Positions 61,469-64,000 of a stretch of 64,000 nt of DNA are shown here, in pieces. Position numbers and translations under genes: made by a program. Each line of letters starts with the position of its first letter. Positions within the stretch are counted from its first letter, which is position 1. The notes under the pieces are model-generated. The model saw nothing but the letters and a program-made list of their open reading frames with translations, was not told where the DNA came from and did no database searches. The stretch comes from Clostridiales bacterium (lineage in GTDB: Bacteria; Bacillota; Clostridia; Christensenellales; Pumilibacteraceae): positions 32,293 through 96,292 of the forward strand of contig SVHU01000001.1 of NCBI GenBank assembly GCA_015055625.1. The letters run 5' to 3'.

Positions 61469-62251
61469 TTATTGTGTTAAGAAAAGCGAATTGATCGCAT
61501 TTGCAATGATAATTGAACAATCTTTTATCATAAAATCTATATCTTTAGGTGAAACTACTATATTACGCTCTCCCGGAATTCCAGAGTATTCTTTTATTAT
61601 TGTAGACATATATACAACGGTTGGAACACCCAGTGATATAACATTTACCCCTAAAGTACGACTACTCAATTCCATTCTATGGTTTTCCACTCCGCTTCCC
61701 GGTACTATTCCGGCATTACTAATTTGGAACGACGTTAAAAGCCTTGACACAGAGCCTGCACACAAACTATCGACTACAATTATCGTACTAGGTTCAACTG
61801 TCTTGCACACGCCTTTTACAACCTCAAAACTCTCTATTCCAGTTGCTCCAATAACGCCTGGAGTAACCGAGCAAACGCAAAACTCACTATCTACTATTTT
61901 TCGTGTTACGTTAAGCATAGAGCATGTTTTCGAGCCCAAAGAGTCCGCTTCTAGCTTGTAATTACCGAGTCCTACAACAAGTATAGTATTGCCTACTACC
62001 AGCTTTTTTAATTCGTTTTTTATAGCACTGGCTATTCTATTATAATATTCTTCACGTCCCTCAATTACAGCAGAAGTGTCTAAAGTTACGTATTTCCCTT
62101 TATTTTTACCTATAAGTTTAGCGTTTTCTTCGTTTAGATAGACTTCACTTAAACTTAATATATCGTCTTGTTTTATTTTTTTTGCGCGTATAAATTCACA
62201 CGCTAAATCACTTGATAAAGTTTTTGCTGAATTTTTTAGAATCTTTTTCAT
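61469..62251 (-). CDS. gpr: Germination protease GPR (compact form)
   Basis: This 260-residue aspartic-like protease degrades SASPs during germination. GKYVTLDTSAV, VVGLGNYKLEADSLG, VTPGVIGATGIES, GSGVENHRMELSSRTLGV and VSPKDIDFMIKD align with Bacillus GPR. The protein is about 110 residues shorter than the Bacillus form (368). The missing part is mainly the region between VPTVV and the VSPKDID motif, plus N-terminal residues. It is divergent from rpsT, as in Bacillus. Confidence 0.95.
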   Translation of the reverse strand: MKKILKNSAKTLSSDLACEFIRAKKIKQDDILSLSEVYLNEENAKLIGKNKGKYVTLDTSAVIEGREEYYNRIASAIKNELKKLVVGNTILVVGLGNYKLEADSLGSKTCSMLNVTRKIVDSEFCVCSVTPGVIGATGIESFEVVKGVCKTVEPSTIIVVDSLCAGSVSRLLTSFQISNAGIVPGSGVENHRMELSSRTLGVNVISLGVPTVVYMSTIIKEYSGIPGERNIVVSPKDIDFMIKDCSIIIANAINSLFLTQ

Positions 62252-62289
62252 TTATTTATAAGTTTATCTCAAATTATGGCAATAAATAC

Positions 62290-62318
62290 TTGATTTTATA
62301 TTTTTTTTATGTTAAAAT
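62290..62318 (+). promoter_or_regulatory. Promoter of rpsT
   Basis: TTGATT (62290-62295), a 17-bp spacer and TAAAAT (62313-62318). The ribosome site AAGGAG (62349-62354) then sits 9 nt before GTG 62364. Confidence 0.7.
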
Positions 62319-62363
62319 ATCTTAGTTGTTAAATCAAAAAATATTTTTAAGGAGTACAAAACC

Positions 62364-62756
62364 GTGCCAAATATTAAATCTGCTATTAAGCGTGTAGAAA
62401 CAAATAAGAAAAAGAATGCAGAAAACAGACCTATTCTTACTGCAGTAAAGAACAGCATTAAGACCATCAACAGCTATATTGATACCAACAATATCGAAGA
62501 TGCTGAGAAGTACCTTCCTACTCTTATGTCTGTATTGGACTCTGCTGTCGCTAAGGGTATTATTCATAGAAATAATGCTTCCAATAAGATTTCTGCTATT
62601 TCGCAGAGAATTTCCGACGTTAAGAACGGAAAGAAAGTTGTTGAAATTAAGAAAGACAACAAGACTATAGCTGCTGAAAAGGCAAAGGCTGCTAAGCTTG
62701 CTCGTGAAGAAGCTAAGAAAGCAAAGGCTGAAGTTGTTGAAGAAAAAGCTGAATAA
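62364..62756 (+). CDS. rpsT: Ribosomal protein S20 with extended C-terminal tail
   Basis: This 130-residue small-subunit protein binds 16S rRNA. The start PNIKSAIKRVETNKKKNAENR and KGIIHRNNASNKISAISQRI are classical S20. The typical protein ends near residue 88; here about 40 further residues form a Lys/Ala/Glu repeat-like tail (KAKAAKLAREEAKKAKAEVV). The start codon is GTG with AAGGAG upstream. Codon use is the most biased in the window, as expected for a ribosomal gene. Confidence 0.96.
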   Translation: MPNIKSAIKRVETNKKKNAENRPILTAVKNSIKTINSYIDTNNIEDAEKYLPTLMSVLDSAVAKGIIHRNNASNKISAISQRISDVKNGKKVVEIKKDNKTIAAEKAKAAKLAREEAKKAKAEVVEEKAE

Positions 62757-62762
62757 TTGATT

Positions 62763-63089
62763 AAAAAAGACTATTGCTACATTTGAAATGCACCCCAAAA
62801 GTTAGACACTTTTAGGCGGTGCATTTTTTATGTCAAGAAAAGGGAACTGTTTGGAAAATAGCGTAATGGAGAATCTCTTTGGAAGACTTAAAGTAGAAAT
62901 GTACTACGGCGAAAAATATGAAAGCGTTAACGCTTTCATAGAAAAGTTACACGAATACGTTAACTATTACAACAACGAAATACCTTTAAAATTGAAAATG
63001 AGTCCAGTAAATACCGAACTCAATTCCAATATATTTAATTTAATTTTTTGTCTAAACTTTTGGGTTCACATCACATCAATAGTCTTTTT
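62763..63089 (+). terminator. rpsT terminator split by an IS remnant
   Basis: AAAAAAGACTATTG (62763-62776) and its perfect 14-base complement CAATAGTCTTTTTT (63076-63089) are the two arms of one terminator now separated by 299 bp containing IS3-type DNA. The first end of the IS makes a substitute hairpin: TGCACC (62789-62794) with GGTGCA (62818-62823), inner AAAAGT/ACTTTT, then six T. Confidence 0.75.
62789..63067 (+). pseudogene. IS3-family (IS150-like) remnant with transposase C-terminus
   Basis: The left end TGCACCCCAAAAGTTAGACA and the inverted right end TGAACCCAAAAGTTTAGACA (reverse complement of 63048-63067) are IS3-family terminal repeats. Between them only the last third of OrfB survives from 62830: SRKGNCLENSVMENLFGRLK, which carries the final Glu of the DDE triad, then YVNYYNNEIPLKLKMSPV. 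Both Asp residues are gone. An ATG lies directly after the left end, but there is no ribosome site. No clear target duplication is seen. It is a dead, internally deleted element of about 279 bp. Confidence 0.85.
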
Positions 63090-63110
63090 TATCTTTTAAC
63101 TTTTCTATAT

Positions 63111-63145
63111 AAAAATCCAATGCGAGATATACGCATTGGATTTTT
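63111..63145. terminator. Bidirectional terminator before malQ
   Basis: AAAAATCCAATGCG (63111-63124) pairs perfectly with CGCATTGGATTTTT (63132-63145). It ends malQ on the minus strand and any rpsT read-through on the plus strand. Confidence 0.9.
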
Positions 63146-63150
63146 TTGCA

Positions 63151-64000
63151 TTATACTCTTTTATATCGAGTTGTAAGATTTGCTAAATATTCCGAGTTTT
63201 TATCAGAAAAACATTTCTTGGGTACTTTTAGTGTCCAGTTTCCTATTTCTCTACCTGGAGTATTCATTCTGTAATCTTTACCAAGTAATGCTACGTCTTG
63301 CATGGGAATTATAAACAAATGCGACTTAGACGCAAAACCAAGCTCTATAACAGATTTTGCTACTGATTGTGAGGAATTTACCGTTTTCTTTATATTGAGC
63401 GATTTAAGGCTATTTTTTACGCCATTTCTGAAGTTTGTATAATCCCATTCGGAAAACTGTTCTAATAATCCCATTAAAGTATCGTTGTCATGTGTACCTG
63501 TATAACAAATACTGTTTTCTTCGAGATTTTGAGGAAGATATGGATTTGTATCTTCGCTGTTGAATGCAAACGAAAGAACTCTCATTCCGGGATATCCTGT
63601 TTTTTTAAGAAGAGCAATTACTCCGTCATCTATAATTCCAAGGTCTTCTGCAATAATGCGTTTTTTAGAAATACGCTTGTGAATTTGCTCAAACAACTCG
63701 TCAGACGGCACTGTAATCCATTCGCCTTCGGTTGCGTCGCTTTTGCCGTAATCAATCTCATAGAAACGATCAAACCCTCTAAAATGGTCAATACGAACGT
63801 AATCGTAATACTTGAGTGCTGAAACGAATCGGTTTACCCACCATTTATAACCGTCTTCGGACATTTTCTCGTAATTATAAACAGGATTGCCCCACAACTG
63901 TCCTGTTGCTGAGAAATAATCTGGTGGAACTCCTGCTACTTTTTTAGGCGTAAGATTATCGTCTAACTTAAATAGTTGAGGATTGCACCATACGTCTACG
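63151..64000 (-). CDS. malQ: 4-alpha-glucanotransferase (amylomaltase), 3' part
   Basis: This GH77 enzyme transfers glucan chains between maltodextrins and glycogen-like donors. The frame is open to the window edge, so only the last 283 residues or so are visible. Seen are GVPPDYFSATGQLWGNP, YVRIDHFRGFDRF with the catalytic nucleophile Asp, IIAEDLGIIDD with the acid/base Glu, and CYTGTHDNDTLMGL with the third catalytic Asp. The gene starts beyond 64000. Confidence 0.96.
   Translation of the reverse strand, partial: VDVWCNPQLFKLDDNLTPKKVAGVPPDYFSATGQLWGNPVYNYEKMSEDGYKWWVNRFVSALKYYDYVRIDHFRGFDRFYEIDYGKSDATEGEWITVPSDELFEQIHKRISKKRIIAEDLGIIDDGVIALLKKTGYPGMRVLSFAFNSEDTNPYLPQNLEENSICYTGTHDNDTLMGLLEQFSEWDYTNFRNGVKNSLKSLNIKKTVNSSQSVAKSVIELGFASKSHLFIIPMQDVALLGKDYRMNTPGREIGNWTLKVPKKCFSDKNSEYLANLTTRYKRV

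Follow-up and report, generated by a model that had tools for sequence, protein, structure and literature searches.

The 3′ end of rpsT in a Clostridiales bacterium raises the question of what becomes of a gene's transcription terminator when an insertion sequence (IS) lands inside it, and of whether such a landing is particular to this gene. In the 64,000-nucleotide stretch of contig SVHU01000001.1 analyzed here (the window), rpsT occupies positions 62364 to 62756 of the plus strand in the list of open reading frames and encodes ribosomal protein S20 (130 amino acids; Pfam Ribosomal_S20p, E = 6.8e-23). The gene is followed on the same strand by two hairpin arms, TAAAAAAGACTATTG (62762 to 62776) and CAATAGTCTTTTTTA (63077 to 63091), which an inverted-repeat search found to be complementary at 15 of 15 positions and 300 nt apart. 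A preliminary description of the locus had given 14 bases and 299 bp; the split stem is real, and both sizes were off by one. The left arm is succeeded by the hexamer CTACAT (62777 to 62782), a former loop whose final CAT (62780 to 62782) is the left copy of a target duplication, then by a single extra T (62783), the IS remnant, and the right CAT copy (63074 to 63076). When the empty site was rebuilt by joining the flanks minus one CAT, the product was a hairpin whose loop is 6 nt long and whose stem is followed by six Ts; the rebuilt rpsT site is an ordinary intrinsic terminator.

Perfect repeats of at least 14 nt with arms spaced 200 to 500 nt apart occur once in the window, and block shuffles yield a mean of 0.18 per window (9 of 50 contain one), so that the perfect repeat alone is weak evidence. 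A chance repeat, against which the repeat by itself does not suffice, is ruled out by the fit of the arms to the IS tips together with the pattern seen in relatives. The comparison with a relative lacking the IS, which the preliminary description had proposed, bears out the split: in the congener G001, an unsplit hairpin of related sequence lies just 3′ of the rpsT stop codon, as read by eye (the top-ranked hairpin of the script at this site is another one, further downstream). A search of positions 61500 to 64000 against Rfam returned no match up to an E value of 1, and a promoter scan found two candidates against 1.8 expected, none above chance. The organism's own genome contains a second rpsT-like match (G000:C46:7708-8076), 59% identical to positions 62364 to 62756 of the window.

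The DNA between the duplicated CATs is a 290-bp, internally deleted element of the IS3 family, IS150 group (62784 to 63073, plus strand), with boundaries read from the sequence and from aligned relatives. Its tips, TGAAATGCACCCC from 62784 and GGGTTCACATCA up to 63073, start with TGAAATG and end with ATCA, which is the TG...CA arrangement with imperfect inverted repeats that is also found in its relatives, and the CAT duplication falls within the 3 to 4 bp of the family, apart from the extra T at the left tip. The remnant consists of both tips and the transposase C terminus (Pfam rve_2, E = 1.1e-12), and on these features the presence of an IS3 remnant within the rpsT terminator loop is confirmed. 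It holds an 89-amino-acid open reading frame (62830 to 63099, plus strand) in which the start is fused to the transposase C terminus from the MSRKGN motif onward and which extends beyond the IS tip. An intact relative in genome G029 measures 1,310 bp, matches the NCBIfam model transpos_IS3 at 300.7 bits (cut-off, 160), and carries OrfA and OrfB in separate frames; the window copy is deleted. At positions 62820 to 62850 of the window, the OrfA start runs directly into the MSRKGN motif from the interior of OrfB; short stretches of similarity between these two regions may have mediated the deletion. A perfect 12-bp inverted repeat with a terminator-like score on the minus strand was also observed inside the transposase remnant (62917 to 62940).

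The left end of the element itself folds into a terminator-like hairpin (62785 to 62828, plus strand; −19.8 kcal/mol, z = −5.55), with six Ts at 62824 to 62829, and none of 200 shuffles folds as well. The stable stem and T-run of an intrinsic terminator are thus present, in the place and orientation appropriate for rpsT, as the preliminary description had it. A second, bidirectional terminator-like hairpin (63111 to 63145; −17.5 kcal/mol on the plus strand and −18.5 kcal/mol on the minus strand, z = −6.3 and −6.7) lies between rpsT and a convergent glycoside hydrolase 77 gene (Pfam Glyco_hydro_77) and is a possible back-up. A simple terminator scan of the window flagged neither hairpin, probably because Ts paired in the stem drop out of its tail count. 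The strength of the downstream hairpin on both strands would allow rpsT to rely on it, with little contribution from the left end of the IS; we consider this unlikely, since it lies approximately 355 nt past rpsT and the left-end hairpin with its six Ts comes first. Judged from the sequence, the left-end hairpin has plausibly taken over rpsT termination, and it would be expected to terminate transcription in vivo.

The first hint that the rpsT site is not singular came from DNA relatives of the remnant, whose flanks end in an A-run and a stem arm. The intact G029 copy lies between AAAAAGCGGACGCC and GGCGTCCGCTTTTT; in G033, a left and a right flank located on two contigs are mutually complementary. 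For a systematic survey, 110 loci with OrfB homologs were assembled, comprising 30 from 297 genomes of the order and the best 80 of 573 confirmed from named genomes. Tips were called by inverted-repeat similarity with a bonus for a duplication, and flank complementarity was not used. Five loci yielded no tips, 19 were removed by eye for noncredible tips after their flanks had been seen, and 12 had flanks that were shorter than 28 nt or contained N, which left 74 usable loci. The flank score compares the left flank with the reverse-complemented right flank, and a score of at least 10 was taken as the threshold.

In total, 53/74 usable loci reached a flank score of at least 10, compared with 5.2% of 2,500 mismatched flank pairs (medians or means, 12 versus 6.4). 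The remaining 21 fell below the threshold, and the count becomes 53/110 if all of the loci that dropped out are considered misses. An A-run of at least 4 was present on the left of 52/74 elements (198/1,000 random positions), a T-run of at least 4 on the right of 66/74 (173/1,000), and both together around 48/74 (40/1,000). Among the 43 of 53 scoring sites with a called duplication, the implied loop has a median of 3 nt; duplications were called in 54/74 relatives by a tip finder that favored matching duplications. A measure based on spanning base pairs (at least 10 pairs in the joined site) separates poorly, being reached by 71/74 real sites, 474/600 mismatched pairs, and 387/600 random positions. 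Insertion in this group is near the hairpin apex, and the rpsT insertion seems to exemplify a target preference shared by the group.

Could the arms instead be an extended inverted repeat of the IS, with no host terminator split at all? The window taken alone is compatible with such an arrangement, which the relatives render extremely improbable. Four identical or near-identical IS copies in G195 have different arms (flank scores of 13, 16, 15, and 14), and so do four in G058 (14, 10, 16, and 10). Arms that vary among near-identical ISs of a single genome are part of the target and not of the IS. They likewise differ between relatives, the duplication sits between arm and tip, and the hairpin is unsplit in congener G001. 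The arms were therefore rejected as a part of the IS on account of their variation between copies.

A different possibility is that these elements do not seek terminators but insert widely, and that copies in terminators survive as the least harmful. Terminators are among the safest places for an insertion, the unbiased orientation described below is compatible with either view, and the annotation of some Escherichia coli records places IS150 within gltL, pcoA, and a TraC-family gene. Survival alone, however, does not demand insertion so near the dyad center as the median implied loop of 3 nt indicates. Moreover, a different IS3 element in G058, under similar survival pressure, reached a flank score of 10 at 0/10 loci, against 4/4 group members examined in that genome, and we regard survival without targeting as improbable. 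Across all controls outside the clade, 0/17 scored loci reached 10 (highest, 9), in a set with several noncredible tips and with flanks shared by some G058 copies. Several copies of the G058 control element (L210 to L219; tips TGGACTGTATCC, 1,297 bp) have flank sequence in common, pointing to a repeat or to a target preference peculiar to this element. Against targeting speak the low flank scores of ISEnfa3 and ISPsy9, each scored in a single plasmid copy (5 and 4).

The group may also target any palindrome or cruciform, with terminators entering the sample as the commonest perfect palindromes. The IS3-family elements IS1397, ISKpn1, and ISPsy8 enter REP palindromes; for ISPsy8, insertion is at the symmetry axis of the hairpin and produces 3-bp duplications, according to the available part of one report (PMC1525189). 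The A-run and T-run around the stem in 48/74 sites, on the other hand, mark terminators and not palindromes in general. The two readings are not cleanly separable here, and we give palindrome targeting a substantial chance, somewhat short of even. On the main reading, the transposase would recognize the hairpin or the terminator itself. As a separate observation, a T-run on the right alone was seen in 18 of the 74 relatives and an A-run on the left alone in 4, despite the unbiased orientation of neighboring genes.

In the OrfB tree (81 rows), built from intact relatives, the scoring sites are spread through a 76-row clade with support of 100/96 and some long branches; the clade includes IS150 and ISKpn8, which places these relatives in the IS150 group. 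The left-end hairpin recurs across the group as well. The first 60 nt fold with z ≤ −3 relative to shuffles in 71/74 usable relatives (median z, −6.2), compared with 2/74 for the last 60 nt on the sense strand and 3/74 for an internal stretch. A start codon comes within 80 nt in 71/74, by rough start calls, and a tetramer resembling a ribosome-binding site precedes OrfA in 52/74, within the 3′ arm of the hairpin in 51. The left-end hairpin is therefore group-wide equipment of the IS, of a kind already described.

Neighboring genes within 400 nt on both sides were found by a simple open reading frame caller for 61/74 loci; 15 were arranged with both genes in the direction of the IS (++), 15 with both against it (−−), 24 convergently, and 7 divergently. 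The equal numbers of ++ and −− cases mean that insertion into terminators happens in both orientations. For 39/61 loci (the −− and convergent cases), transcription of a neighboring gene enters the IS at its right end. The left-end hairpin can substitute for a lost terminator only if the host gene is transcribed into the left end, which is the arrangement at rpsT. According to the preliminary description, the insertion appears to be tolerated thanks to a terminator supplied by the IS. As a cause this is not supported, because the hairpin is present in 71/74 relatives whatever the insertion and the orientation to neighboring genes is unbiased; that interpretation was also too narrow, since rpsT appears to be one instance of a wider pattern. 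The hairpin fits better as self-protection of the IS against read-through, with any benefit to the host a side effect in one orientation; besides its group-wide occurrence and the unbiased orientation, the right end forms no comparable hairpin on the sense strand (2/74 with z ≤ −3).

Copies of the left-end hairpin also stand without a full IS in the organism's own genome, where DNA similarity located one approximately 74 nt past a V-type ATPase subunit gene (contig C39; L008, 2445 to 2490, plus strand) and one approximately 13 nt past ftsZ (contig C4; L009, 2657 to 2704, minus strand), both in the sense orientation, and a weaker one past an araC-like gene (contig C37; L010, 2385 to 2427, minus strand); these neighbors were named by eye from translations. 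They may be IS-derived terminators that are still in use. A covariance model of the hairpin revealed no further strong copy in this genome, and its three best matches prove nothing new because they were part of its training alignment, having already come from the DNA similarity search. A G001 locus (L276) examined as a parallel to the ftsZ case is not one. Solo left-end hairpins in G024, G009, and G029 (L047, L048, and L069) have a far end that mirrors the tip (TGAAATGCACC...GGTGCATTTCA and TGATATGCACC...GGTGCATATCA) and are perhaps tiny nonautonomous elements with a left tip at both ends.

IS150 itself resembles these elements in its OrfB (48.7% identity), its position in the same tree clade, its tips (TGTACTGCACCC versus TGAAATGCACCCC), and its 3- to 4-bp duplications. 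It differs in that the E. coli element lacks the left terminator hairpin (−8.2 kcal/mol) and, at hok-sok loci, lies mostly in a hairpin arm and not at the apex. The sample analyzed comprised 12 regions, chosen partly for variety from 60 listed of 3,429 records, together with a plasmid IS150 and an ISKpn8. The 13 IS150 loci represent eight distinct sites, six of them beside hok genes; homology among hok loci makes these six nonindependent. Joined flanks place the insertion inside a hairpin with a T-rich tail on the opposite strand, at the apex for the plasmid copy and in an arm for the rest; because the flank score reached 10 in just 1/14 loci, this pattern is suggestive. At L229, L237, L238, L241, and L243 to L246, IS150 was observed within the sok-region hairpin beside several different hok genes. 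In the K-12-type hokA copies (L239, L240, and L242), the flanks are rearranged and half of the hairpin is visible. The hairpin at these sites is presumably the Sok terminator. Rfam sok matches span the IS150 hok region in 8/11 sources, and in strain REL606, where the hokC site is empty, the sok match scores 122.4 bits.

Published insertions offer a further comparison. Positions given on a REL4536 reference were used where they agreed with REL606 genes (16,972; 16,989; 388,275; and 388,543), and two that did not (582,237 and 1,272,468) were left out. The two insertions reported at hokC/nhaA (PMC5419217, in the part available) both map within one REL606 hairpin; the two brnQ insertions, mapped on REL606, fall outside terminator-like hairpins. 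In its available text, that study files the hok-sok insertions under the inactivation of redundant functions. For IS150 sites beside hok genes, selection against hok is a reasonable competing account. The accessible part of a companion mutation-accumulation study in E. coli names trg/mokB as an IS150 hotspot, with 2 aerobic and 8 anaerobic cases among 50 IS150-mediated mutations (PMC5289635). Terminator-apex targeting may explain the IS150 hotspots at hok-sok.

Group IIC introns insert adjacent to intrinsic terminators; they are retroelements without transposase or inverted repeats, unlike the ISs considered here. IS1397, ISKpn1, and ISPsy8 are alike in structure-guided insertion, but their targets are REP repeats, whereas those found here are terminators with A- and T-runs and with arms varying from site to site. 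IS1272/TnSha1 (IS1182 family) also target hairpins, several of them confirmed terminators, and remove the hairpin without a duplication, according to the available portions of two reports (PMC4923244 and PMC5678879); at rpsT both arms are kept and CAT is duplicated, so that the locus is not a case of hairpin replacement of that type. Terminators at the 5′ end of ISs were described by Naville and Gautheret as class 1 mobile attenuators, which lie upstream of transposase genes, with IS3 families named, and are said to silence an IS that has landed in a transcribed region; in its accessible parts, this work treats insertion as nearly random and draws no tie to insertion into terminators (PMC2965389). 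IS200 combines a terminator with a site-hiding hairpin, as stated in the available part of another report (PMC3196728). A search of open-access literature turned up no report in which IS150-group elements target the terminator apex, and an earlier mention is possible. The new part appears to be the pairing of an IS-borne terminator with insertion into terminators; its novelty is limited by the structure-targeting ISs already known.

We consider it highly probable that the window holds a dead copy from an IS150 group that prefers the apices of intrinsic terminators and carries a left-tip hairpin, and that this hairpin now occupies the place of the former rpsT terminator. Elements of the group would insert preferentially at the apex of a terminator hairpin, within the sequence of A-run, stem, short loop, and T-run, and each insertion would generate a 3- to 4-bp duplication and split the stem into two arms. 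The left-tip hairpin, which would overlap the inverted repeat, the ribosome-binding site, and the transposase start, is expected to fold when codirectional host transcription reads through, ending that transcription and hiding the start site. At rpsT, a codirectional arrival would have put the left hairpin where the former terminator stood, and a later internal deletion of approximately 1 kb would have spared the tips. With less assurance, we think it likely that terminator-apex targeting is ancestral in the IS150 group across several phyla and paired with the group's own left-tip terminator, such that each codirectional insertion would swap a host terminator for that of the IS; the E. coli IS150 hotspots in hairpins beside hok genes, at present attributed to toxin-antitoxin inactivation or given no explanation, would be accounted for as well.

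Structure-guided insertion is known for few elements, and here it is the apparent rule for a large and widespread group, with terminators as the target. The proposal also suggests how a puzzle from the published literature, the clustering of IS150 insertions between trg and mokB, could be tested. If it holds, a simple rule would predict the landing sites of IS150-group ISs, and IS-driven terminator turnover would be a general force acting on the 3′ ends of genes.
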